Below, piece after piece: positions 8,864-64,000 of a stretch of DNA of 64,000 nucleotides. The notes under the pieces were generated by a model that was given only the letters and a program-made list of their open reading frames with translations, had not been told where the DNA came from and did no database searches. The stretch covers positions 186,001 through 250,000 of the forward strand of contig NZ_LT699728.1 in NCBI RefSeq assembly GCF_900155395.1, given 5' to 3'. This stretch comes from Merdibacter massiliensis. Lineage in GTDB: Bacteria; Bacillota_I; Bacilli_A; Erysipelotrichales; Erysipelotrichaceae. Numbering within the stretch: the stretch's first letter is position 1; each line of letters begins with the position of its first letter. The translations under genes were made by a program, and so were the position numbers.

Positions 8864-8930
8864 TTCAAACGTCTCAAGGAAAGCGCAGAAATTGTGGCTA
8901 TGTGAAAATTACGTGAATTGCTTTGAAAAA

Positions 8931-8959
8931 TTGCTTTTTCATCTAGAATCGCATATAAT
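8931..8959 (+). promoter_or_regulatory. Promoter of the foldase pair
   Basis: TTGCTT and a perfect TATAAT are 17 bases apart, 28 bases before the start at 8987. It diverges from the suf promoter about 70 bases away. Confidence 0.7.
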
Positions 8960-8986
8960 GAAAAAGCAACTGAAAGGATGAAATTT

Positions 8987-9991
8987 ATGGTGGAAATACT
9001 AAAGAAAAACTGGTTTGTCGTATTGATCGCGATCCTGCTGTGCGGCTTTTCGATCTACTACGTATGGGATACGACAAAAGACTTTGTCAAAGGAAAAAGT
9101 GTGGATGGCAAAGAATTGATTGCGTCCATCGACGGCTATGATCTGACAGCCGATGATCTCTACGATGAGATGAGCCGTTTCTCTGTTTCACAGCTGTATT
9201 ACCGTTTCCGTAATGCAGTCATCGAACAAAGCGTAACTGAAGAAACAGACGAGATGAAAGAAGCTGCGAAAACACTGCGTTCGAATTTGGAAGCACAGGC
9301 ACAGTCAAGCACGAGTTCTTCCGGCAGCAGTGCGGATGATCTGATCGCCGACATGTTGAAAAACGTCGGTTTAGGAGAAGATGAACTGGATCGTTTCTGC
9401 ATGCTGGCGCAAAAAGAAGCTGTGTTACAGCGCAATTATGTCAAAGAACATTTCGATGATCTGATGAAAGATGTAAAGAATCCGCATGTGATCTCGATCA
9501 TCGAGCTGGCAGTCAATGATGCAAGCTCACTCACTGACGATGAAAAAGCTTCACAGGAAAAGATCGATCAGGCACTAGAAGATGGCAGTGCATTTGCCGA
9601 TGTGGCGAAAGAGCAGTCACAGTCAACGATCAGCGATGAAAACGGCTTCTATGGTTATATCGATGAGAAGACATCCAGCTCTACGACATTTACGGATGAT
9701 ATGCTCAAAGCTGCATTGGCTTTGAAAGAGGGAGAAACCAGTGCCTGGGTCAAAGTGGACAGTGACAGCGGAGACAAGCTGGTATTGATCCATGCCGATA
9801 CCGTTGGCAAAGATGCAGTGAAAGAAAGCGATAATAATGATGTTTGGAGCTCACTTGTTTCTACTCTGGTCAATCGTAATTCCACATTGGCAAGCGAGAT
9901 CTTATTCAATGCTGCTGATCAGCTAGATATCAAGTTCACTGATGAAAATATGGAAAGCCGTTTGCGTATCTACGCTGGCTTAGATGAGTAA
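8987..9991 (+). CDS. Membrane-anchored parvulin-type foldase
   Basis: Predicted peptidyl-prolyl isomerase-like chaperone of 334 residues acting outside the membrane. An uncleaved membrane segment (about 7-25) is followed by a SurA/PrsA-like N-terminal domain, a Ser-rich linker and a parvulin-like region (about 165-275, with the GFYGYIDEKTSSS stretch). The second ATG (8987) is chosen because AAAGG is nine bases away, whereas the ATG at 8978 abuts it. It stands 14 bases before a PrsA-like lipoprotein gene, so the two probably form an operon for folding exported proteins. Isomerase activity is not certain. Confidence 0.75.
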   Translation: MVEILKKNWFVVLIAILLCGFSIYYVWDTTKDFVKGKSVDGKELIASIDGYDLTADDLYDEMSRFSVSQLYYRFRNAVIEQSVTEETDEMKEAAKTLRSNLEAQAQSSTSSSGSSADDLIADMLKNVGLGEDELDRFCMLAQKEAVLQRNYVKEHFDDLMKDVKNPHVISIIELAVNDASSLTDDEKASQEKIDQALEDGSAFADVAKEQSQSTISDENGFYGYIDEKTSSSTTFTDDMLKAALALKEGETSAWVKVDSDSGDKLVLIHADTVGKDAVKESDNNDVWSSLVSTLVNRNSTLASEILFNAADQLDIKFTDENMESRLRIYAGLDE

Positions 9992-11029: not shown

Positions 11030-11422
11030 ATGTGTATATTTTGCGATATCGCAGAAGGAAAGATTCCTTCCAGCAAGATTTATGAGGATGACAAAGTGAT
11101 TGCTTTCCTCGATCTGTCACAAGTGACCAAAGGACATACCCTGGTCGTGCCAAAACAACATTTTGATAATTTCTTGACTTGCGATCCAGAGATCTTGGCA
11201 CATTTGATGCAGGTAGCACAAACGCTGGGAAAACACATCATGGAAAAAACCGGGGCGAAGGGCATGAATATCTTAAGCAATCTAAATGAAGTTGCCGGAC
11301 AAAGCATCATGCATTTCCATGTCCATCTCATTCCGCGTTATAGCGAAGAGGATGCCGTTCAGATCGTATTTCACGAATCAGAAAAACAAGATCTGGATGC
11401 ATTGAAAGAACAATTGCAATAG
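11030..11422 (+). CDS. HIT-family nucleotide hydrolase
   Basis: Histidine-triad protein of 130 residues, likely a purine nucleoside phosphoramidase or dinucleoside polyphosphate hydrolase. The triad is HFHVHL (His95, His97, His99), with the N-terminal CIFCDIAEGKIP motif typical of Hint-like proteins. TAGGAGG lies upstream of the ATG, and a TACAAT -10 lies at about 11000. Its stop codon is two bases from the 3' end of the group II intron, so the terminator that presumably served it is now about 1.9 kb away. Confidence 0.92.
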   Translation: MCIFCDIAEGKIPSSKIYEDDKVIAFLDLSQVTKGHTLVVPKQHFDNFLTCDPEILAHLMQVAQTLGKHIMEKTGAKGMNILSNLNEVAGQSIMHFHVHLIPRYSEEDAVQIVFHESEKQDLDALKEQLQ

Positions 11423-11423
11423 A

Positions 11424-13343
11424 GTAGAGGGAAGAAATTAATCTTCGCCCCTCTCATTGCACCGTACGTACGGGTCTCGTATACGGCGCTACATTTATAT
11501 GTTAATACAACCTATCTTAGATAGTATGCTAGAGGATTGACCAATCCAGGTCTTTCCTCTTTTCTTATGGCTAGAATATCCGCATTAAGTAAGAAATTAA
11601 TTACATTCCCATTTGCTTGTTTATATAGGCCAAGCCTTGTATTCGCTACCGAGTAGAGTTGTTCATCACTGAAGTGATATGGCAATTTCTCATTCAACTT
11701 TTGTAGATTTTTATATATCCTCGGTGGTACTTTCCACTGTTTTAAGATGATGACCCTTATTTTGTGCCTTAACCATTGTCCAAATTCATCGATGAAGTTC
11801 TTCATCCTTCCGATTCGAAAGTAGTTTATCCATCCTTTGACGATTTGGTTTATCCTGGTGAATGTTTTAGCGTTGGTCTGTGCTACACATTTCTTTCGAA
11901 TGAGTTCCTTTCGACATTTATCATACAGGCTTTTCTTACTCTTCTTTGTAGGAATACATTCCCATTTTGATGAGTTCTTCCAGTATGCAAAACCTAGAAA
12001 ATTACTATTCGTTGGTCGTACTACCTTTGTTTTGGTTGCACTGACTTTTAGGAATAATTTTCTCTCCAGCCATGATGTGACGGACTTCATCACTCGATTT
12101 GCTGCCATCTCGCTTTTAACGAAGATATTACTATCATCTGCATATCTCACAAAGCATAGTCCCCTTTCTTCCAGTTCCTTATCAAATTTATCTAAGTAAA
12201 TATTTGATAGAATTGGACTTAGAGGTCCTCCTTGTGGCATTCCTATGGCATTTGCTTTGACAAAACCATTTTCCATGATTCCTGCCTGCAGGAATTTACG
12301 AATCAAATGCAATGTTGTCGAATCATTCACATGCTCTCTAAGTATTGAAATTAATTTATCGTGATTTACTGTATCGAAGTATGCTTCTATATCTAAATCG
12401 ATGACCCATTCGTATCCTTCATTTAAGTAGTCCAGTGTTCGCAGGATGGCATCATGTGCACTCCTGTTTGGTCGGAATCCAAAACTATTCTCACTGAATT
12501 TACTATCATAAATATCTGATAACACTTGAGCTATCGCCTGTTGGATGACCCTGTCTACTACTGTCGGAATTCCCAGGGGTCTTTTCTTTCCATTTGATTT
12601 AGGAATATAGACTCTTCTTACAGGTTGAGGTTTGTATTTCTTCGCCAGTATCTGTTTCTTTATCTGTTCCCTATAGGCCTTGAAATACTCGTCAATTTCA
12701 TCCACTGTCATCTTATCAATGCCAGGTACACCTTTATTACTTTTGACTCTTTTGATTGCCTCTTCGAGATTTTCATCTCTTAAGATCACTTCGATCAATT
12801 TCATGTTGTTGCTTCTCCTTCCTTTTGTAAATATATTTGGAACCATTCCCTCTACCTTCATTCCCATGGGATTACGATTCCCACTTATGGAACTATCCTC
12901 GATTTCGAACTATCCAAACATTGCGCATGGTGAGCTGCACCATATAAACATTAGGTCCTTGGGTATAGATGTCTCTACCTACTACGACCTCAGCTGACTT
13001 CTTGTGGTAAACCTTTTTCGACCGATGTTACCATCACTGATTTTAAAGATATTGGATTTCATCGTCCACAAGACCTCCCGGGGTAATTCACGAATCCTGT
13101 TTCTTTCACAACGTCCTGATTTACTGTCTTGGTTTTACGTTTACCTTTTGGACTTCGGTTTGATATGCAACCTTATCCACCATTTAGCCTTATATCCGGT
13201 TTCTGTTCGTACGCTCGAAAGAATCGCTACACCACTTCCTCCATCCTCAACATCACTGTTAACGACTTGTGGTTCGCTACACTTGGCGGTAACTACCTGT
13301 GGTTGGTTTATCTCCAACTGAATTCGTGCCATGCCCGGCACAC
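11424..13343 (-). mobile_element. Group II intron, probably class C
   Basis: The 5' end is GTGTGCCGGG at 13343, matching the GUGYG start of group II introns. The 3' end lies at about 11424, where a domain V hairpin (AGCGCCGT ... ACGGTGC, about 11450-11485) and a domain VI stem (GAGGG/CCCTC with an unpaired A near the end) are visible. Domain IV holds the maturase ORF; domains I-III occupy about 12805-13343, which otherwise contains no gene. The 5' exon is a rho-independent terminator hairpin, the usual target of class C introns. The 3' junction is uncertain by a few bases. Confidence 0.85.
11512..12804 (-). CDS. ltrA: Group II intron reverse transcriptase/maturase
   Basis: Multifunctional protein of 430 residues that splices the intron and copies it into DNA. 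It has the N-terminal RT0 region, fingers and palm domain (NSFGFRPNRSAHDA, DLDIEAYFD, GMPQGGPLSPILSN) and the active site YADD (221-224). A maturase X domain follows (GWINYFRIGRMK). No HNH endonuclease domain is seen at the C-terminus, which fits class C. The start with GGAG ten bases upstream is chosen over a longer in-frame reading. The frame is intact, so the intron may be mobile. Confidence 0.95.
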   Translation of the reverse strand: MKLIEVILRDENLEEAIKRVKSNKGVPGIDKMTVDEIDEYFKAYREQIKKQILAKKYKPQPVRRVYIPKSNGKKRPLGIPTVVDRVIQQAIAQVLSDIYDSKFSENSFGFRPNRSAHDAILRTLDYLNEGYEWVIDLDIEAYFDTVNHDKLISILREHVNDSTTLHLIRKFLQAGIMENGFVKANAIGMPQGGPLSPILSNIYLDKFDKELEERGLCFVRYADDSNIFVKSEMAANRVMKSVTSWLERKLFLKVSATKTKVVRPTNSNFLGFAYWKNSSKWECIPTKKSKKSLYDKCRKELIRKKCVAQTNAKTFTRINQIVKGWINYFRIGRMKNFIDEFGQWLRHKIRVIILKQWKVPPRIYKNLQKLNEKLPYHFSDEQLYSVANTRLGLYKQANGNVINFLLNADILAIRKEERPGLVNPLAYYLR

Positions 13344-50635: not shown

Positions 50636-52327
50636 TTACTTGCTCATTCGGCGTTTCATATACAAAGCAGCGCTCAAAGCAGCACAAGAAGTAAACAATA
50701 CGAACCATAATGCAAGATTATTGGCTGTATCTGTGTCTGGAGTTGTCTCTGCCACAGGTTTTTCGTCACTTGGTGTTGCTGGTTCTTGTGGAGTTTCTGT
50801 TGGATCATCACTTGGTTGAACAGGACTTTCTACTGTATAAGAAACAGTAGGTCTGGCAAATGCTTCTTCTTTTCCCATATTGCCATTGGTATCTACCGGT
50901 GTTAAAACGGCTGATAAATTTGTATATAAACCATCCATGCCTTTGCTGCCGTCTGCATCATAGCTACCATAAGTGCCTGGCTGTGTGGATGGATTTGTCA
51001 ATACGACCTTATAAGTCAATTGAACCGGCGCAAAATTCGATACAGCTTCATTAATGTGCCATACGAAGTGTTCTTGTCCTCCTTCACCAGGTACATATTC
51101 CACTACATACGCATAATCCGCTGTGGATTTGGCAACAACAGATGGTTTGAATCCATAGGTATTTTCAGCTATTTCTACAGCTTCATATACTTCATCTCCC
51201 ACCATCAAGCGCAGTGTAGATGGATCATTGACAAAATCAAAATCATATTCCCCTTCTGCATATCCCATATAATCGGTTACCGTAGAACCGGCATCTAAGA
51301 GATAATAGATATCTTTTTGAATTTCACTGAAGGAAACTTCCTCATTTCCGCCATTCAAGTAATCCATAAAGCCTTTAGCCCACGCAGCCGAAGAGACTGT
51401 GTCTTTTGAATTTACCGCATAGCAGTGGTAACCTTCATTTTTGGCTTCGTTATATACCTGGTAGGTGTAATACAAAGCACGGTCGACATTCGTTGCATAT
51501 ACATTCTGCTGTAAGCCGTCAGCAGCTGTAGCTAAATTTTCTGGAATTTCTTCTTTAGAAGCTCGATACCCATTTAAGATATCTCTTGCTTCTCCTTCAT
51601 ATGGAATTTCGATCGCATTGCTGTTTTCAATAGCGGTTTGGACATTGCTCATCCATGCATTCCAGTCAGCTGGCGCATCATCGCTTCCATATTTAAAGCT
51701 CCATGCATAGTTATCAAAGGAGAAATAAGGCGATCCATCACTCATCCAGTAATAAGCCGTAACTGTTGGCTGTGCTCCATACATATAGGTATTTCCATCA
51801 CTGGCAAAAATGAGATATTTGCGACTTGCTTCCACGCTCTGATCTTCATCCAGCATTGCCTTGCCTGCTAACAGACCAGCATGCGTATTTGTACCGCTGC
51901 TGATTTCTGTTTTGATAGCAGTTTCAATAGCCGCCATGTTCTCGTCATTTAATTCGGTCAATTCCAAGACGCGGTTGGCTTGCTTATTGAAAATAACGAT
52001 ACCGACCTTGACTGTTGCATCTGTTGATTGAATCTGCGTATTCAATTCTTACAGCATTTCTAAGATCTGATTTTCGACCCTTGCACTAGAAGATTTATCC
52101 AGTACAAATACGACATCGCTTACTAATTCTTCCTGAGCAGAAGGCAAAGACAATGTCACTTCGGATGTGTAGTCAGCATCCAAATTGGTTGCTGTTTTTG
52201 ATTTTGAGATTTCCCAATCTGTAGACGATTCCCCTGTATTCTCTGCGTGTGCAGCAGACGGCGATAATGCAAAGAGCATACCAACGCTTACAACAAACGC
52301 CAGAAATTTTTTCAGCACTGATTTCAT
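50636..52327 (-). pseudogene. von Willebrand A surface protein with in-frame TAA
   Basis: The reading frame has a start with AAAGGAG upstream, a signal peptide (1-28), and a VWA domain whose metal-site motif DVVFVLDKSSSA is clear. TAA at 52048-52046 stops it about 94 codons in; reading continues in the same frame (ELNTQIQSTD, VKVGIVIFNKQ) for 470 codons to a Pro/Thr-rich spanner, a TPDTD stretch, a hydrophobic segment and KRRMSK. One base change explains the stop. The full protein would be about 563 residues. A downstream ATG two codons after the stop could give a fragment without signal peptide. Confidence 0.88.
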
Positions 52328-52355
52328 ACTTACACTCTCCTTTACGTGCTCTTTC

Positions 52356-52381
52356 CTATCAAAAGCTTTACATTTTGATAG
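52356..52381. promoter_or_regulatory. 26-bp palindromic operator candidate
   Basis: CTATCAAAA and TTTTGATAG are perfect nine-base arms separated by eight bases. It lies just downstream of the promoter of the VWA gene and 29 bases before its start. A second, imperfect copy (CTATCAAAAGC...TTTTAATTG) lies at 52503-52528. Bases 52529-52682 are very AT-rich and show nothing else. Confidence 0.6.
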
Positions 52382-52395
52382 TTTTTCTAATAATA

Positions 52396-52424
52396 ATTTT
52401 ATACCTGTAAAGTGATAATTGCAA
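52396..52424 (-). promoter_or_regulatory. Promoter of the VWA gene
   Basis: TTGCAA and TAAAAT with a 17-base spacer. The palindrome at 52356-52381 would overlap the start of the transcript, a position for repression. Confidence 0.6.
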
Positions 52425-52682
52425 GAAACATCCACCGCTTTTTTCGTGAACATTTTGCTTTTTTAGACAAGAAAAAGCTTTTTTTATGCTCTTTTTTGCC
52501 TACTATCAAAAGCTAAACATTTTAATTGATTATATTATTTTTAAAAAAATATTACATAATTGATTAATATCATGTTATTTTTTAATTGCTATTTTACATA
52601 TTTTTTACAATGGACACCTCTGTTCACATCACTTTACCCGACCTGTTTTTAAAATGATCTGCAAATTGCATATATTTTATAT

Positions 52683-56569: not shown

Positions 56570-56598
56570 TTTTACTTATTCATTGAATATGCTAATAT
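56570..56598 (+). promoter_or_regulatory. Candidate promoter of the purine operon
   Basis: TTTTAC and TAATAT are 17 bases apart, eight bases before the riboswitch. The boxes are weak. The AT-rich stretch 56462-56569 shows nothing else. Confidence 0.4.
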
Positions 56599-56605
56599 GG
56601 TAAGG

Positions 56606-56728
56606 TGTTTCATATATGTCTGCAGATATGGTGCAGACGTTTCTACCTCAGACCGTAAAATTGAGACTATGAATCAACAGTATTTTTTATTATGCATTGT
56701 TGATTCTCGGCGGGGTCGAGAATTTTTT
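56606..56728 (+). promoter_or_regulatory. Guanine-type purine riboswitch with terminator platform
   Basis: P1 (TTTCATA/TATGAA), P2 arms GTCTGCA/TGCAGAC enclosing GATATGG, the core GTTTCTACC, P3 with CCGTAAA, and the closing GACTATGAA are all present (56607-56677). The ligand-pairing base in GACTATG is C, which selects guanine or hypoxanthine rather than adenine. The 3' part of P1 continues as GAATCAACA, which pairs with TGTTGATTC (56698-56706); that antiterminator overlaps the terminator TTCTCG/CGAGAA with six T residues (56704-56728). Ligand binding should turn the operon off. Confidence 0.93.
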
Positions 56729-56747
56729 ATTTGAAAGGGATGTCGTG

Positions 56748-58064
56748 ATGAAAAAAGAAAAGAAAGAATTGGAAACAGAAGCTTCTATTTATGAATTAGA
56801 CGGCAGAGTGCCTCTGCGCAAGGCGCTGCCGCTTGGAATTCAGCACATTTTGGCCATGTTCTTAGGCAACATTTCACCATTATTGATCGTATGCGGAATG
56901 TTGGCAATGGAAACAGGATTAAAAACCGTCTTGATCCAGAATGCGATGTTTGTTGCTGGTGTGGCTACGTTGATTCAATTGTATCCGTTTTGGAAGATCG
57001 GCAGCGGATTACCGATCGTCATGGGAACCAGTTCGGGTTTTATCGGTACAGCAAAAGCCATGGGCGCGTTGTTTGGTTATGGTGCCTTGATGGGTGCGAG
57101 CTTCATCGGCGGAATCTTCGAGATGGTGCTTGGTTATTTTATCAAACCGCTTCGTAAATTATTTCCGCCTGTCGTAACCAGCTTGGTGATCATTTCCATC
57201 GGTCTGTCTTTGCTGCCGGTAGGGATCAATTATTTCGGCGGCGGATCTGGAGCAGCTGATTTTGGTTCTCCTAACCATTTGATGGTGGGCAGCTTTGTCA
57301 TCTTGGTCATCCTGATTGCAAAACAATTCAAAGGATTTATCAGCAATGCTTCCATCCTGATCGGCATCGTTGCCGGTTATCTTTTGGCAATCCTGTTAGG
57401 AATGGTCGATTTTACCCAAGTACAACAGGCAGCCTGGTTCTCTTTGCCTGTCTTCATGCCGGTTGCTTTTGAATTTAATTTACAGGCAATCATCGCCATG
57501 GGCATCATGTTTATTGCGACAACCGTAGAAACGATCGGCGATGTCAGCGGCGTTGCCAACGGCGGACTGGACCGGGAAGCAAGTGACAGCGAATTACAAG
57601 GCGGCGTCATGGCGGATGGATTAGGAAGCTTATTGGGATCCTTGTTTGGCGTATTGCCGAATACCAGCTTTTCGCAGAATGTCGGTCTGGTTGCCGTAAC
57701 AAAAGTAGTCAACCGTTTTGTCATCTTTACCGGTGCGATCTTCTTGATCCTTTGCGGCTTCTGTCCTAAATTAAGTGCACTGTTCTCTGTTATGCCGCAA
57801 TCGGTCTTAGGCGGGGCAGCAGTCATCATGTTTTCCATGATCTTGGTCAGCGGTATTCAATCATTGACAAGAAAGCCGCTGACAGAACGTGATGGATTGA
57901 TCGTTGCATTAGCAATCGGTTTGGGAGTAGGAATCGGCAATGTACCAACCGTGCTTGCCCAAATGCCGCAATGGGTCGGCAATATCTTTGCCCAAAACGG
58001 GATCATCATGACCTTTGTGATCGCTACTGTATTGAATCTGATCCTGCCCAAAGAGAAAGAATAA
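56748..58064 (+). CDS. NCS2-family purine permease
   Basis: Membrane transporter of 438 residues with 12-14 segments, of the xanthine/urate type. The family signature is present as QNVGLVAVTK, preceded by ATTVETIGDVSGVANGG-type TM8 sequence with the acidic substrate residue. AAAGGG before the ATG at 56748 fixes the start; an ATG upstream lies inside the riboswitch platform. Control by guanine fits import of xanthine, hypoxanthine, guanine or urate. Its stop overlaps the NTPase start (TAATG). Confidence 0.93.
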   Translation: MKKEKKELETEASIYELDGRVPLRKALPLGIQHILAMFLGNISPLLIVCGMLAMETGLKTVLIQNAMFVAGVATLIQLYPFWKIGSGLPIVMGTSSGFIGTAKAMGALFGYGALMGASFIGGIFEMVLGYFIKPLRKLFPPVVTSLVIISIGLSLLPVGINYFGGGSGAADFGSPNHLMVGSFVILVILIAKQFKGFISNASILIGIVAGYLLAILLGMVDFTQVQQAAWFSLPVFMPVAFEFNLQAIIAMGIMFIATTVETIGDVSGVANGGLDREASDSELQGGVMADGLGSLLGSLFGVLPNTSFSQNVGLVAVTKVVNRFVIFTGAIFLILCGFCPKLSALFSVMPQSVLGGAAVIMFSMILVSGIQSLTRKPLTERDGLIVALAIGLGVGIGNVPTVLAQMPQWVGNIFAQNGIIMTFVIATVLNLILPKEKE

Positions 58065-58573
58065 TGAAAATATTCATCACTGGAGCCAAGGGAAGCGGTA
58101 AATCTACTTTGGTACAGACCATCATACAAGAACAGCAATTGCAAGTGAGCGGCTTCTTGACGCTTCCTTTATATGAAAATGGAAACCGGATCGGTTTCTA
58201 TTTTCATTCTTTAATACCTGTACAACAAAATGATCAGCGCTTTTCGATTCAAGAAACAACCAGCAACCGGACCATCGCCGGCATCTTTGATCATCTGGGC
58301 GTGGAGTGTTTAACAAACAGTCAGGGGAATGCTTATATCGTCATGGATGAAATCGGCTATCTTGAACATGATGAAAACAGCTATCTTTCATCCTTAACAC
58401 AAACCATTGATAAAAACCCAAATATCATTGGTGTTTTACGAAAATGCGATATACAATATATATGTCAGATACGGCAGCGGAAGGATATCCTTTTGATCGA
58501 TCTGGATACGATATCCTTTATGGATGCCAAAGCAATGATCAACAAACAGATAGAAGAGGAAAGAAAAAAATGA
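58064..58573 (+). CDS. THEP1-type P-loop NTPase
   Basis: Small protein of 169 residues with Walker A GAKGSGKS (7-14), the SGFLTLPLYENGNRIGFYF region and Walker B DEIGYLE (95-101), as in the NTPase_1/THEP1 family; the VLRK motif near 147 also fits. Known members hydrolyse ATP and GTP slowly, and their cellular task is unclear. It is coupled by overlaps to the permease (TAATG) and to the ABC lipoprotein (ATGA), so its job is linked to purine use or cofactor supply. Confidence 0.82.
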   Translation: MKIFITGAKGSGKSTLVQTIIQEQQLQVSGFLTLPLYENGNRIGFYFHSLIPVQQNDQRFSIQETTSNRTIAGIFDHLGVECLTNSQGNAYIVMDEIGYLEHDENSYLSSLTQTIDKNPNIIGVLRKCDIQYICQIRQRKDILLIDLDTISFMDAKAMINKQIEEERKK

Positions 58574-59568
58574 AGAAGATGATGAAATTTTTTTTGGCAC
58601 TTTGCATGTGCCTATCCCTTGTGGCTTGCGGATCGGCCACACAAGAAAACACAGGTAGTTTTACGATTGAAGATCAGGCAGGAAGAAGCGTAACTTTTGA
58701 TGAACCTGCCAAAACTGCAGCCAGCGGCTATTACATCGCGACGACAACTTTGATCGGATTAGGATGTGAAGATGCTTTGGTCGGTGTAGAAATGAAAGCA
58801 GACACGCGAAAGATCTACGCTGCTGCCGCTAAGCAAATACTAACACTGCCTGCATTAGGCAATAAGAAAAGCTTTAATGTAGAAGAGTGTGCCGCAGCAG
58901 ATCCAGATGTCGTTTTCCTGCCGGTCAGTTTAAAAGACTATGTTGAACAACTGGAAGATCTGGACATGAAAGTGATTTTATTGAACCCGGAAACAGAAGA
59001 GACCTATGATGAAGCAGTTGAGATCATCGCAAGAATCATGGGAAAAGAGGATATCAGCGAACAGTACTTCACCTATCGAAAAGATCTGTTTGAAAAATAT
59101 GTGAAAGAACAAGAAGAAAAGAAAACTGTCTATTTTGCCGGAAGCGATATTTTAGAAGCCTGCGGCAGCGATATGTTTCAAAATGAGCTGATTCAGGATG
59201 CCCAAGGAAGTTATGTGCTGAATGAGCAGTTAAAAGGGGTCAGCACTTGGCAAAAGATCAATGTTGAGGAATTGATACAAGCGGATCCTGACTATATCTT
59301 TATCGAACAGGGCGGCATTTCCGTAGACGATGTGCTCAACAACAGTGCTCTCAGCGATATCTCTGCAGTGAAGAATCATCACGTATATATCTTCCCTAGT
59401 GAATATGAAACTTGGGATACACCGAATCTGTCTTCTTGTTTAGGTGTGTTGTGGATGTATGCCATCTTGTATCCGGATGCGCTGTCCATGGAAGATGTCG
59501 CAAATGAAGCCAATGCCTTCTATCAAACATATTACGGTTTTGATGCGGACATGACCTTTGCATCATGA
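58570..59568 (+). CDS. ABC importer substrate-binding lipoprotein
   Basis: Class III (BtuF/FepB-like) binding protein of 332 residues with a lipobox LVAC (Cys20) and the periplasmic-binding fold (ADPDVVFLPVS; ADPDYIFIEQGG). The C-terminal WDTPNLSSCLGVLWM followed by YPDAL is like MolA-type molybdate/tungstate binders and other metal-chelate binders. The start at 58570 overlaps the NTPase gene; longer readings have no site. In this operon molybdate or tungstate is the likely cargo, but iron or cobalt complexes are not excluded. Confidence 0.88.
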   Translation: MKKMMKFFLALCMCLSLVACGSATQENTGSFTIEDQAGRSVTFDEPAKTAASGYYIATTTLIGLGCEDALVGVEMKADTRKIYAAAAKQILTLPALGNKKSFNVEECAAADPDVVFLPVSLKDYVEQLEDLDMKVILLNPETEETYDEAVEIIARIMGKEDISEQYFTYRKDLFEKYVKEQEEKKTVYFAGSDILEACGSDMFQNELIQDAQGSYVLNEQLKGVSTWQKINVEELIQADPDYIFIEQGGISVDDVLNNSALSDISAVKNHHVYIFPSEYETWDTPNLSSCLGVLWMYAILYPDALSMEDVANEANAFYQTYYGFDADMTFAS

Positions 59569-60533
59569 AAAAGCAATTGCTATTGGCGGGCAGTTTGCTG
59601 ATCCTATTACTGATCTCGCTGATTTGTGGAAGATACAGCGCTAGTGCCTGGGAAGCAGCTAGCGCTTTCGTGCATGGAAGCAGTTCTCCCCTTGGCAAGA
59701 TCTTATTTCAAATTCGCCTGCCGAGGATCTTGTTTGTGGTCTTGGCCGGTGCCGGTTTATCCGTATGCGGTTCCATTTTTCAAACGATCTTCAAAAATCC
59801 GCTTGCCAGCGGCGATATCATCGGTGCCAGCAGCGGATGTTCATTAGGTGCTGCAATTGCCATCTTATGTTTTGCAGATGCATGGGGAACCTGGTTCTCC
59901 GCTTTTCTTGGAGGAATGAGTGCGATCTTTGGCTGTCTGCTGCTTGCTCATCGAATGCATGGAAACCGTATCTTGAATTATGTAGTAAGCGGTTTGATCA
60001 TTCAGGCAATCGCAACTTCAGCCTTGATGATGATCAAGTTGACCGCTGATCCTTACCAGCAGCTTGGTTCGATCGAATTCTGGCTGATGGGCGGTTTTGC
60101 CAATATCAGCTGGAATAATGTCGCATTGTTAGCGCCTTGTGCGCTTATCCTGCTTTGGATCTTATACCGGCTGCGCTGGAAGATCCAGCTGCTGGCTTTT
60201 GGAAAAGACGGAGAAACGTTGGGGAATGCACCTGTCTTCCTGACTGTCAGCGTATTGACCCTGTCTTCGCTGCTGATCAGCGCCATCATTGCCTCTGCCG
60301 GGATTGTCAGCTGGGTTTCTCTGCTCGTTCCGCATATGGTCCGTATTGCTTTTCACCAGAATTTTATGCAAAGTTATGTTTATAATCTATTGGTTGGTGC
60401 CATCTTTCTGCTGATCGCGGACACGCTTGCACGCTGTCTGTTCACGATTGAAATTCCGATCAGCATCATTACCAGTTTGTTTGGCGCAGCATTTTTGGTT
60501 TTCTTATTTATCAAGGGAAAGATCAACATATGA
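59565..60533 (+). CDS. FecCD/BtuC-type ABC permease
   Basis: Membrane subunit of 322 residues with about ten hydrophobic segments. Family motifs: RLPRILFVVLAGAGLSVCG at the second segment, NPLASGDIIGASSG, and GIVSWVSLLVPHMVR near the cytosolic contact with the ATPase. It is coupled to its neighbours by ATGA overlaps on both sides. Together with the lipoprotein and ATPase it makes a type II importer. Confidence 0.93.
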   Translation: MKKQLLLAGSLLILLLISLICGRYSASAWEAASAFVHGSSSPLGKILFQIRLPRILFVVLAGAGLSVCGSIFQTIFKNPLASGDIIGASSGCSLGAAIAILCFADAWGTWFSAFLGGMSAIFGCLLLAHRMHGNRILNYVVSGLIIQAIATSALMMIKLTADPYQQLGSIEFWLMGGFANISWNNVALLAPCALILLWILYRLRWKIQLLAFGKDGETLGNAPVFLTVSVLTLSSLLISAIIASAGIVSWVSLLVPHMVRIAFHQNFMQSYVYNLLVGAIFLLIADTLARCLFTIEIPISIITSLFGAAFLVFLFIKGKINI

Positions 60534-61264
60534 TTACAGTAAATGATATCCGCATTACATTGGGTGATAAAACGATCGTACAGGATGTTTCTTTTCAGAT
60601 TCCGCAAGGAAAGATCCTCATGTTATTAGGTGAAAACGGCTGCGGCAAGACGACCTTGATCAAAGGCTTGTTACAGGAATATCCCCTTGCGAAAGGATCT
60701 GTCACATTCAACGGTAGCAATGTACAAACACTATCCTATAAACAGCGGGCTGCTATCTTCTCTTACATTCCGCAGATCAAGGAAATGGCCGATCAAATGA
60801 CATGCAAAGATGTGATCGTCAGCGGCTTGGATCGTTTCCTTCATTTCTTGCAGATCCCTGGTCCCCCTGAATATGCAAAAGCAAAACAGATCCTGCAACA
60901 ATTTCAGATCGAAGAAGTATTTGATCAGCGAATCGATCAGATCAGCGGCGGTCAATTGCAGCTTGTCTATCTTTGCCGGGCGTTTCTTCAAGATGCCTCT
61001 TGCATCTTGATGGATGAACCTTGTACTTATCTGGATTTCATCAAGCAGCATGCATTTTTGGAACATACCAGAAACTTGACAAAGCAAGGACACAGCGTTG
61101 TCATCAGCATACATGATCCAAACCTGGCGCTTGCTTACGGAGATGAGATCCTTTTCATGCACCAGGGAAAGCTTCTTGCCGATATAAAAAAAGAAGAAAC
61201 CGATATGCGGCAAGCATTGCGTGATCTGTATCAAAAAACCTATCAAAGGGAAATACTATTTTAG
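60530..61264 (+). CDS. ABC importer ATPase
   Basis: ATPase of 244 residues: Walker A GENGCGKTT, signature ISGGQLQLV, Walker B CILMDEPCTYLD and the switch His in ISIHDPN. It is of the FecE/BtuD type and powers the permease before it. DEPCTYLD, instead of the common DEPTSHLD, is a mild variant. Confidence 0.93.
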   Translation: MITVNDIRITLGDKTIVQDVSFQIPQGKILMLLGENGCGKTTLIKGLLQEYPLAKGSVTFNGSNVQTLSYKQRAAIFSYIPQIKEMADQMTCKDVIVSGLDRFLHFLQIPGPPEYAKAKQILQQFQIEEVFDQRIDQISGGQLQLVYLCRAFLQDASCILMDEPCTYLDFIKQHAFLEHTRNLTKQGHSVVISIHDPNLALAYGDEILFMHQGKLLADIKKEETDMRQALRDLYQKTYQREILF

Positions 61265-61273
61265 GAGGTTATC

Positions 61274-62041
61274 ATGCTCAATATCCAACAATTTGTGCAA
61301 CCAAAGTCATTACAAGAAGCTTATGAGCTGTTGCAAAAAAATCGAAATAACCAGATCATTGCAGGCATGCTGTGGTTAAAGATGGAAGATCGCAGCATCC
61401 CAACTGCCATCGATCTGCAGCACCTTGTATCCGACCAGATCGAAGAAAGCGATGATCGCTTTATAATCGGTGCCAATGTGACATTACGCATGTTTGAAAC
61501 ACATCCGGCATTGAATCAATGGATGCATCATGTATGCAGGGATAGTGTAAAAGATATCGTCGGTGTCCAATTTCGCAATCTAGCTACCGTCGGCGGCAGC
61601 GTTTATGCCCGTTTCGGGTTCTCTGATGTCATTTGTGCACTTCTGGCCTGTGATGCAACAATCATTTTATACAAAGGCGGAGAGATGCCGTTGGAAGAGT
61701 TTGTTCAAAGTCCTTATCAACGCGATATCCTCACCCATATCGTCATACCGAAACAATCTCTGCCGCGCAGTTTTGTCTGCATGCGCAAAAGCGCAACCGA
61801 CATTTCAACTTTAAATTTGAGCGTGGTCAAGAAAAAGGAGCAGTATCAATTTGCTGTCGGAGGACGTCCGCAGAAAGCTATTTGTATCCAGTTGCCTGTA
61901 GAAGAAGATACGATCGTTGCCAAAAAGCTGCGTTCTCTAGTCCCATGTGAAGGAAATATGCGTGCCAGCAAAGAATATAGAGAAGCTTTAGTAGAAGCTT
62001 TATGCAGAAAAGCATTGAAAAAATTGGAGGAAACCGCATGA
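61274..62041 (+). CDS. xdhB: Molybdenum hydroxylase FAD subunit
   Basis: FAD-binding subunit of a xanthine-dehydrogenase-type enzyme, 255 residues. The FAD domain shows IIAGML near residue 30 and ATVGGSVYARFGFSDV for the flavin contact. It is at the short end for the family (about 290). TAGGAGG precedes the ATG, ten bases after the transporter gene. The last bases overlap the 2Fe-2S subunit gene (ATGA). Confidence 0.92.
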   Translation: MLNIQQFVQPKSLQEAYELLQKNRNNQIIAGMLWLKMEDRSIPTAIDLQHLVSDQIEESDDRFIIGANVTLRMFETHPALNQWMHHVCRDSVKDIVGVQFRNLATVGGSVYARFGFSDVICALLACDATIILYKGGEMPLEEFVQSPYQRDILTHIVIPKQSLPRSFVCMRKSATDISTLNLSVVKKKEQYQFAVGGRPQKAICIQLPVEEDTIVAKKLRSLVPCEGNMRASKEYREALVEALCRKALKKLEETA

Positions 62042-62514
62042 AGATAACGATCACACTTAATGGAAAAAGGATTCAGGAAGAAATTGCAAATGATGTATTG
62101 TTGATCGACTTTTTACGGGCTCACGGCTGTTACAGCGTCAAACGCGGCTGCGAAACAAGCAACTGCGGGCTTTGTACGGTCTGGATGGATCAAAAGCCGG
62201 TATTATCCTGTTCCCTGTTATGTGCGAAATGTGATGGTCACAGCATCACGACCTTGGAAGGCGTACAAAAACAGGCAGAAGCATTTGCTTATTTCATGGC
62301 TCATGAAGGGGCTGAGCAATGCGGTTTTTGTTCACCGGGACTGATCATGAACGTATTAGCCATGGAACAAGAATTACAAGCACCTACCATGGATGAGATC
62401 CGCTCTTATTTAGCAGGCAATCTGTGCCGCTGCACAGGTTATATGGGACAGATGCGGGCCATTCAAAAATATCTGCATCGAAACAAGGAGGCCGCACATG
62501 AAACAGATCAATAA
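62038..62514 (+). CDS. xdhC: Molybdenum hydroxylase 2Fe-2S subunit
   Basis: Electron-transfer subunit of 158 residues with two 2Fe-2S clusters. The plant-ferredoxin-like one uses Cys38, Cys43, Cys46 and Cys58 (RGCETSNCGLC); the helical one uses Cys95, Cys98, Cys130 and Cys132 (QCGFCSPG, CRCTGY). All ligands are present. The ATG at 62038 overlaps the stop of the FAD subunit. Confidence 0.96.
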   Translation: MKITITLNGKRIQEEIANDVLLIDFLRAHGCYSVKRGCETSNCGLCTVWMDQKPVLSCSLLCAKCDGHSITTLEGVQKQAEAFAYFMAHEGAEQCGFCSPGLIMNVLAMEQELQAPTMDEIRSYLAGNLCRCTGYMGQMRAIQKYLHRNKEAAHETDQ

Positions 62515-64000
62515 AGCTGTCGTAAAAAAGGACGCCTACGCATTGCTCAGCGGAAAGCCGCTTTTTACAGACGATCTGGCAATGAAAGATTGCCTGATCA
62601 TCAAGATCCTGCACTCGCCCCATGCGTTTGCCAAGATTTTGTCCATCGATACCTCCATGGCAAAAAAGATTCCGGGAGTGGAAGCTGTCTTTACTTATGA
62701 AGATGTTCCTTCTTCCCGCTTCACCTTGGCTGGCCAAACCTATCCCGAACCTTCTCCTTATGATCGAAAGATCTTAGATCAGATCGTGCGCTATGTAGGA
62801 GACGAAGTTGCCTTGGTCGTGGCGGTTGATGAAGAAACCGCATTAAAAGCTATGAAGCTGATCAAAGTACAATATGAAGTATATCCGCCTGTCTTAGATT
62901 TTCGCAATGCATTAGATTCTTCCAGCATCATCCATCCGGAAGAAGACTATCGCACGCTATGCGATATCGGCAATGACCGCATGCGCAATCTGTGTGCACA
63001 TGATGAAAGCAATTATCAGGATGTGGATGCCGTATTCCCTGCTTGCGATGTCGTATTGGAAAGAACCTATCATACCAAAGCCAATGCACAGGCAATGATG
63101 GAAACCATGCGTTCTTATGCCTATATCGATGCTTATGGAAGATTAAACTGTGTCAGTTCCACACAAGTGCCTTTCCATATCCGGCGTATCTTGAGCAATG
63201 CACTGGAGATCCCCAAAAGCAAGATCCGGGTCGTCAAACCAAGGATCGGCGGAGGGTTTGGCGCCAAGCAAACCGGCTGTACCGAGATCTTCAGCGGTTT
63301 TGTCACATGGAAGCTAAAAAAGCCAAGCAAGATCGTCTATACCCGGGAAGAAACGCTCACTGCCAGCAATTCTAGGCACGAAATGCAGATGCGGGTAAAG
63401 ATCGGTGCCAGCAAAGAAGGCATCATCAAAGCAATCGATCTGTACACATTGTCGAATACGGGGGCCTATGGAGAGCATGGTTCAACGACTGTCGGTCTTT
63501 CCGGCCACAAGTCATTGCCATTATATAACCATGTAGAAGCCGCACGTTTTACCAGCGATGTTGTTTACAGCAATACCATGACTGCCGGTGCTTATCGCGG
63601 TTATGGAGCCACACAAGGTCTTTTTGCCGTTGAATCGATCGTGAATGAACTGGCGGATGCCCTGCATATGGATCCTTGTGAACTGCGTTTTAAAAATATG
63701 GTAAAAGAAAATGAAACTTTACATATGTATTATGGCGAATATCTCAACAGCTGCGCACTGGACCGCTGTCTGCGCAAAGCCATGGAAATGATCGATTATC
63801 AAAATAAACCGCTTTGTTTAGATCTAGGAGACAAAGTGCGCGGGCTTGGCGTCGCATTATCTATGCAAGGTTCCGGTATCGCCAATGTCGATCTTGCTGC
63901 TGTAGAGATCAAACTGCAGGATGACGGCTTTTATACACTATCGATCGGCGCAACCGATATGGGAACCGGCTGTGATACGATCTTGGCACAGATGGCAGCC
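62498..64000 (+). CDS. xdhA: Molybdenum hydroxylase catalytic subunit, 3' end outside window
   Basis: Catalytic subunit of a xanthine-dehydrogenase-like enzyme; 501 codons are visible and the frame is open to the window end. The aldehyde-oxidase a/b hammerhead domain (about 12-115) leads into the molybdopterin-binding domain with GGGFGAKQ (near residue 250) and YRGYGATQG. The conserved Glu of the C-terminal part lies beyond the window. AAGGAGG precedes the ATG, which overlaps the end of the 2Fe-2S gene by 17 bases. The riboswitch and permease favour xanthine or hypoxanthine as substrate over aldehydes. Confidence 0.93.
   Translation, partial: MKQINKAVVKKDAYALLSGKPLFTDDLAMKDCLIIKILHSPHAFAKILSIDTSMAKKIPGVEAVFTYEDVPSSRFTLAGQTYPEPSPYDRKILDQIVRYVGDEVALVVAVDEETALKAMKLIKVQYEVYPPVLDFRNALDSSSIIHPEEDYRTLCDIGNDRMRNLCAHDESNYQDVDAVFPACDVVLERTYHTKANAQAMMETMRSYAYIDAYGRLNCVSSTQVPFHIRRILSNALEIPKSKIRVVKPRIGGGFGAKQTGCTEIFSGFVTWKLKKPSKIVYTREETLTASNSRHEMQMRVKIGASKEGIIKAIDLYTLSNTGAYGEHGSTTVGLSGHKSLPLYNHVEAARFTSDVVYSNTMTAGAYRGYGATQGLFAVESIVNELADALHMDPCELRFKNMVKENETLHMYYGEYLNSCALDRCLRKAMEMIDYQNKPLCLDLGDKVRGLGVALSMQGSGIANVDLAAVEIKLQDDGFYTLSIGATDMGTGCDTILAQMAA

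Follow-up and report, generated by a model that had tools for sequence, protein, structure and literature searches.

A guanine-switched molybdenum hydroxylase operon of Merdibacter massiliensis with a putative importer of preformed molybdenum cofactor

Anatomy of the operon and its leader RNA

The window, a stretch of 64,000 nucleotides from the genome of Merdibacter massiliensis, ends within an operon which starts with a purine riboswitch and continues beyond the last position of the window. The following features were recognized:

56590..56689, forward strand: purine riboswitch aptamer of the guanine type (RF00167, 74 bits, gathering cut-off 37)
56671..56706, forward strand: antiterminator, in which GAATCAACA (56671-56679) pairs with TGTTGATTC (56698-56706)
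56702..56724, forward strand: intrinsic terminator, GATTCTCGGC-GGG-GTCGAGAATT, followed by the T run TTTTATTT
56748..58064, forward strand: NCS2 permease of the PbuX (xanthine permease) subfamily (PF00860, 3.9e-85; TIGR03173, 418.7 bits, cut-off 414)
58064..58573, forward strand: THEP1-type P-loop NTPase (NTPase_1, PF03266, 1.9e-20)
58570..59568, forward strand: class III substrate-binding lipoprotein (Peripla_BP_2, PF01497, 5.9e-25)
59565..60533, forward strand: FecCD-family permease (PF01032, 3.2e-67)
60530..61264, forward strand: ABC ATPase of the importer (PF00005, 9.4e-29)
61274..62041, forward strand: FAD subunit of a molybdenum hydroxylase (PF00941, 8.1e-27)
62038..62514, forward strand: 2Fe-2S subunit of the hydroxylase (PF01799, 5.5e-22)
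62498..64000, forward strand, continuing past the window to L003:9775: Mo subunit of the hydroxylase, 758 aa (PF20256, 4.3e-71; PF02738, 1.1e-69)
L003:9765-10310 (about 64764-65309 in window numbering): MocA-type cytidylyltransferase, the last gene of the operon (TIGR03310, 7.2e-40; its score of 137 bits lies under the cut-off of 186 bits)

All eight genes in the window, from the NCS2 permease to the Mo subunit, are intact and match Pfam or NCBIfam families, as the initial annotation had named them. Most gene junctions are overlaps of 1-17 bases, and the sole gap (9 bases) lies between the ATPase and the FAD subunit. A separate promoter for the ABC genes, considered there as a possible objection, found no support, since promoter-like sites across these genes were not in excess (8 against 12.5 expected). 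The same gene order, for which a search had been suggested, recurs in many other genomes, far beyond chance.

The enzyme possesses the FAD, 2Fe-2S and Mo domains and the cofactor-site motifs of a xanthine oxidase-family hydroxylase, and the Mo-subunit motifs GGGFGAKQ, AGAYRGYG and PFGAKSIGE are intact. The Mo subunit missed the NCBIfam cut-off of the XdhA equivalog (655.9 bits against 780), and the FAD subunit stayed under that of the xanthine dehydrogenase family XdhB (70 bits against 287). The adjacent genes with PF01032, PF00005 and PF01497 domains encode a FecCD-type (type II) ABC importer. For the NTPase, the predicted fold (pLDDT 95) matched best with the THEP1 structures 2i3b and 1ye8.

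The aptamer carries C74, U51 and C53 (xpt numbering), the first two of which are marks of the guanine type. With its three stems, C74 and U51, the aptamer belongs to the guanine-I class, in which U22, U51 and C74 contact the ligand (PMC9295807). A xanthine-II riboswitch was rejected, because the junctions GTTTCTACC and GACTA are canonical, and neither U51G nor junction insertions are present. The segment GAATCAACA is common to the antiterminator and the 3' strand of P1, and TGTTGATTC overlaps the 5' arm of the terminator, so that terminator and antiterminator exclude each other. The minimum-energy fold of the leader contains the antiterminator stem, and single-strand folding returned the antiterminator form alone. 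A comparable terminator hairpin was found in nine relatives, one of them an operon without importer genes. As the 3' strand of P1 takes part in the antiterminator, ligand binding is expected to end transcription, and this architecture of the leader sequence implies a predicted OFF expression platform. A guanine-class switch with terminator, as initially annotated, thus heads the operon, and this single switch precedes the genes for purine uptake, for a MolA-like FecCD importer and for a molybdenum hydroxylase. The other purine riboswitch of the genome is located upstream of a purine synthesis operon.

Occurrence of the importer and of cofactor synthesis genes

The source genome (completeness 99.85%) yielded in genome searches neither MoaA nor MoaC, MoeA_N or any PF00994 (MogA/MoeA) protein; control genomes gave matches to all four in the same searches. 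It nonetheless carries the intact hydroxylase and the MocA-type protein. The same absences were observed in the tested importer-bearing relatives, with the exception of G145. In this genome the moa cluster has as neighbours transporter genes of the mod type and the gene of an aldehyde ferredoxin oxidoreductase, an enzyme which the pathway may serve. Lone PF00994 matches in four importer-bearing genomes (G113, G201, G434 and G437) are CinA; a similar single match occurs in G202 (Robinsoniella).

Absence of MoeA_N was rejected as sole evidence, as some MoaA-positive siblings are also devoid of MoeA_N and carry a 344-aa PF00994 protein in its place; PF00994 was therefore searched as well. An incomplete assembly was likewise dismissed because of the high completeness of the source genome, the single contig of G006 and the concordance of the isolates. 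A metal-free enzyme was also rejected, since the three Mo-subunit motifs are identical in importer-bearing and cofactor-making genomes and MocA is part of the operon.

Within the bacterium's own family (196 genomes), the importer was detected in 16 genomes, 14 of which have a molybdenum hydroxylase; in the two exceptions the importers are distant homologues (25-31% identical). Among the hydroxylase-positive genomes of this family, 13 with importer had no MoaA and one had it, against one and 12, respectively, without importer (p=1e-5), and the counts for MoaC were identical. Both MoaA and MoaC were missing in 8/8 importer-bearing genomes of the family with a completeness of at least 93%. In 317 genomes of Lachnospiraceae, requested at a completeness of at least 90%, the importer profile gave a clean split, with scores of at least 331 bits in 20 genomes and a next score of 159. 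All 20 possess the hydroxylase. Here, hydroxylase-positive genomes with importer were 17 without and 3 with MoaA, and those without importer 7 and 101 (Fisher p=5e-13). A separate scan of GTDB contigs, partially overlapping with the two family sets, revealed 41 importer loci; of 35 genomes reached through them, 32 contain the hydroxylase and only seven MoaA.

The co-occurrence in 20/20 and 14/16 genomes agrees with the initial annotation in that the importer most likely serves the cofactor of the hydroxylase. In the two family sets, importers in genomes without this enzyme, which would speak against such a role, were limited to the two distant homologues. MoaA-negative isolates with importer include Amedibacillus dolichus, Longicatena caecimuris, Faecalitalea cylindroides, Anaerotignum lactatifermentans, Robinsoniella peoriensis and [Clostridium] aminophilum, and the importer genomes are mostly gut-associated. 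MoaA is present despite the importer in G145, in the three Lachnospiraceae and in the 7/35 genomes of the GTDB scan. Hydroxylase with neither MoaA nor importer occurs in seven Lachnospiraceae and in G063. One of these, G255, which is without a close importer, holds a related XdhC-NTPase-FecCD-ATPase-SBP cluster (L171), possibly a sister importer; the exchange does not account for the remaining ones. The NTPase belongs to the cassette of importer-bearing relatives, but some importer operons have no NTPase gene.

The tree of 65 hydroxylase subunits requires at least 13 changes of importer state, and in seven independent pairs on well-supported branches MoaA moves opposite to the importer (sign test p=0.016); the importer-less rows of this tree were taken from MoaA-positive genomes, leaving out the seven Lachnospiraceae and G063 that lack both, which biases the test towards a swap. 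The other side of this exchange is represented by G052, a single contig, which has genes for MoaA, MoaC, a MogA-type protein and ModABC (L083). Its operon (L084) consists of switch, NCS2 permease, FAD, FeS and Mo subunits and MocA, without the importer cassette, and the five proteins are 83, 51, 70, 78 and 37% identical, respectively, to those of the operon described here. Three further genomes (G021, G071 and G088) show the same importer-less gene order. In both siblings inspected, G052 and G021, modABC-type genes lie beside moa. As the same operon is known without the cassette, the latter was inserted into, or lost from, an existing guanine-switched purine operon.

The neighbourhoods of importer relatives also contain genes related to molybdenum. 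XdhC adjoins importers at two loci (L089 and L171), a ModE-type HTH protein is encoded inside the importer operon of Faecalitalea (L048), and at L031 a ModE-type HTH is fused to MocA. At L034 a Moco riboswitch (RF01055) lies upstream of SBP-FecCD-ATPase genes, followed downstream by a lipoprotein with a weak match to a molybdopterin domain (just below the Pfam cut-off) and then by a THEP1 NTPase.

Candidate substrate of the importer

A profile search with the binding lipoprotein gave 4hn9, 4ovk and MolA (3psa) as the closest solved structures, and Foldseek with the AlphaFold model (pLDDT 91.6) returned the same order of structural relatives. The binding protein 4hn9 of Eubacterium eligens belongs to the same family (profile E 1.6e-106, 35-36% identity; rmsd of chain A to the model 1.8 Å); its 'iron' is a label given by the depositors. 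The nearest relative with a known ligand is MolA (profile E 8.4e-36, with BtuF and CeuE at about 1e-14; rank 4 in the fold search), which binds molybdate and tungstate (PMC4031551), and its sequence identity to the lipoprotein is about 21%. The models of BtuF, IsdE and other heme, cobalamin or siderophore families were all far under cut-off. The expected kinship with MolA in sequence and fold was thus confirmed; the role in metal supply that the initial annotation had attached to it was not.

The cassette of NTPase, binding protein, FecCD permease and ATPase probably takes up preformed molybdenum cofactor or something close to it, with Mo-molybdopterin or its nucleotide form as the most likely cargo. 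The lipoprotein would bind cofactor that other microbes have set free, and import would follow. MocA would then add CMP to give the dinucleotide with which enzymes of this family work, and this dinucleotide would be inserted into the hydroxylase; the THEP1-type NTPase might help in the release or hand-over of the cofactor. In this way, the cassette would enable a bacterium that cannot synthesize the cofactor to keep its only molybdenum hydroxylase working. Free molybdenum cofactor is oxygen-labile, so its supply outside of cells is uncertain; this speaks against the reading, as do the molybdate and tungstate bound by MolA, the importer-bearing genomes with MoaA, the hydroxylase-positive genomes with neither MoaA nor importer and the importer operons without NTPase.

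It is unlikely that the importer is of the MolABC type and supplies molybdate or tungstate, with the cofactor derived from an unrecognized pathway, even if MolA is the nearest relative of known ligand and MolBC-A is an importer of molybdate (PMC4031551). The low identity to MolA speaks against it, and MoaA, MoaC and MogA/MoeA would all need unrecognized replacements in exactly those genomes which bear the importer. No known enzyme that makes the pterin or inserts the metal turned up there, and molybdate import can therefore not substitute for cofactor import. The siblings that can use molybdate are devoid of this importer, and where inspected they possess ModABC-type genes instead. The initial reading that the importer provides Mo or W was set aside as probably wrong for these reasons, as free molybdate would be useless to such a cell. 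An importer of a precursor, either cyclic pyranopterin monophosphate or metal-free molybdopterin, into which the metal is inserted in the cell, would account equally for the absence of MoaA and MoaC. It is improbable, since the source genome and the tested importer-bearing relatives, G145 apart, contain no MogA/MoeA-type protein and thus no known metal-inserting enzyme.

Slightly less probable still is an unrelated ligand, with nothing but the promoter shared and the MoaA pattern as a side effect of the genome reduction that goes with a host-associated life. Siderophores, heme and cobalamin are the usual cargo of FecCD importers, and the importer genomes are largely gut-associated. Against this, the importer tracks the molybdenum hydroxylase in both families, its exchange with MoaA recurs in independent pairs, and the neighbourhoods of the cassette or of its relatives hold XdhC, ModE-like and MocA genes and Moco-riboswitch elements; the scores of the BtuF, IsdE and related models point in the same direction.

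A survey described several hundred organisms with orphan molybdoproteins, mainly of the xanthine oxidase and DMSO reductase families, without a complete pathway, and left open whether unrecognized synthesis or metal-free enzymes are behind them (PMC6147048). The transport of Moco across membranes has been stated to be an open question, with uptake of exogenous cofactor seen only in Caenorhabditis elegans (PMC9793310), and a search of the open-access literature revealed no bacterial Moco importer or auxotroph. With somewhat more reserve than for the substrate itself, we consider it likely that the cassette represents the first bacterial system dedicated to the uptake of the finished, metal-loaded cofactor, repeatedly gained in exchange for the entire pathway, and that the cofactor acts like a vitamin which gut bacteria share. 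If so, the puzzle of the orphan molybdoproteins would be answered, working molybdenum enzymes in organisms without the pathway would be explained, and the purine metabolism of such gut bacteria would rely on their neighbours for the cofactor. A transporter family swapping with the pathway makes the questions of orphan enzymes and Moco transport directly testable in cultured gut isolates. It might also point to a way of delivering the cofactor in molybdenum cofactor deficiency.

Regulation by guanine and comparison with known systems

An OFF switch for guanine on a permease and a hydroxylase fits salvage rather than breakdown of purines. At low guanine the cell would produce the xanthine-type permease and the hydroxylase, and together with these the means of cofactor supply; the hydroxylase would, as we infer for the direction of the reaction, convert oxopurines suitable for salvage into one another. 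The switch would be present because the operon serves purine acquisition. Guanine-I OFF switches have indeed been suggested to permit the use of other purines, e.g. xanthine, at low guanine (PMC9295807). The initial idea that the switch adds a layer of metal control is weak: the same guanine switch precedes the importer-less operon of G052, and a riboswitch search of importer loci did not find it on many importer operons elsewhere.

The xanthine-II switches, which lie upstream of xanthine dehydrogenase, are also RNAs of the purine riboswitch type near the same type of enzyme; they carry U51G along with insertions in the junctions and are predicted to be ON switches for xanthine (PMC9295807), whereas the switch described here is of the canonical guanine type with OFF architecture. 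The NCS2/MocA operons of the xanthine dehydrogenase type, as in G052, share riboswitch, permease, the three subunits and MocA with the present operon. They differ in that the cassette is missing and that the genome of G052 encodes ModABC and its own cofactor synthesis. The dietary uptake of Moco by C. elegans (PMC9793310) is likewise a life on preformed cofactor, but in an animal. MolABC of Haemophilus influenzae (HI1470-1472) is also a FecCD-type system with a class III binding protein and is linked to molybdenum, taking up free molybdate alongside ModABC (PMC4031551). Unlike MolABC, the cassette of M. massiliensis belongs to a host without cofactor synthesis and is located inside a hydroxylase operon, together with a THEP1 NTPase.

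Other features of the window

Two further features were located on the minus strand of the window:
11419-13262, minus strand: group II intron RNA domains (RF00029, RF01998, RF02001)
50636-52453, minus strand: two adjacent ORFs resembling a single secreted vWA-type surface protein
The ORF pair looks like one gene that was broken by a frameshift or a stop codon.

Aptamer variants and genomes possessing MoaA

The aptamers of four other loci (L021, L022, L023 and L024) and of the importer-less operon L084 carry GTTTCTAGC at the junction in place of GTTTCTACC, which corresponds to a C to G exchange at position 53 (xpt numbering). This position is expected to be a pairing site in the aptamer core.

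MoeA_N was absent from some MoaA-positive siblings, and a protein with PF00994 as its sole domain was present in them:
L083:10247-11281 (genome G052): PF00994-only protein, 344 aa
This protein is possibly a divergent Mo insertase. In two MoaA-positive genomes (L064 and L069), a binding-protein gene is located immediately upstream of those for the hydroxylase, with neither a permease nor an ATPase match next to it. The pattern resembles gradual loss of the importer in genomes that keep the pathway.

Related putative import loci

In L031, a MocA-type cytidylyltransferase fused to a ModE-type DNA-binding domain (8922-9863) is encoded divergently from the importer genes. The cluster XdhC-NTPase_1-FecCD-ATPase-SBP (L171:4145-9751), found in the hydroxylase-positive, MoaA-negative genome G255, possibly represents a sister importer family. 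In genome G195 (78% complete), in which neither MoaA nor a hydroxylase was found, a Moco riboswitch precedes a distant SBP-FecCD-ATPase set, which is followed by a lipoprotein weakly matching Oxidored_molyb and a THEP1 NTPase (L034:329-4826 for the whole arrangement). Such a layout hints at another type of operon for cofactor import.
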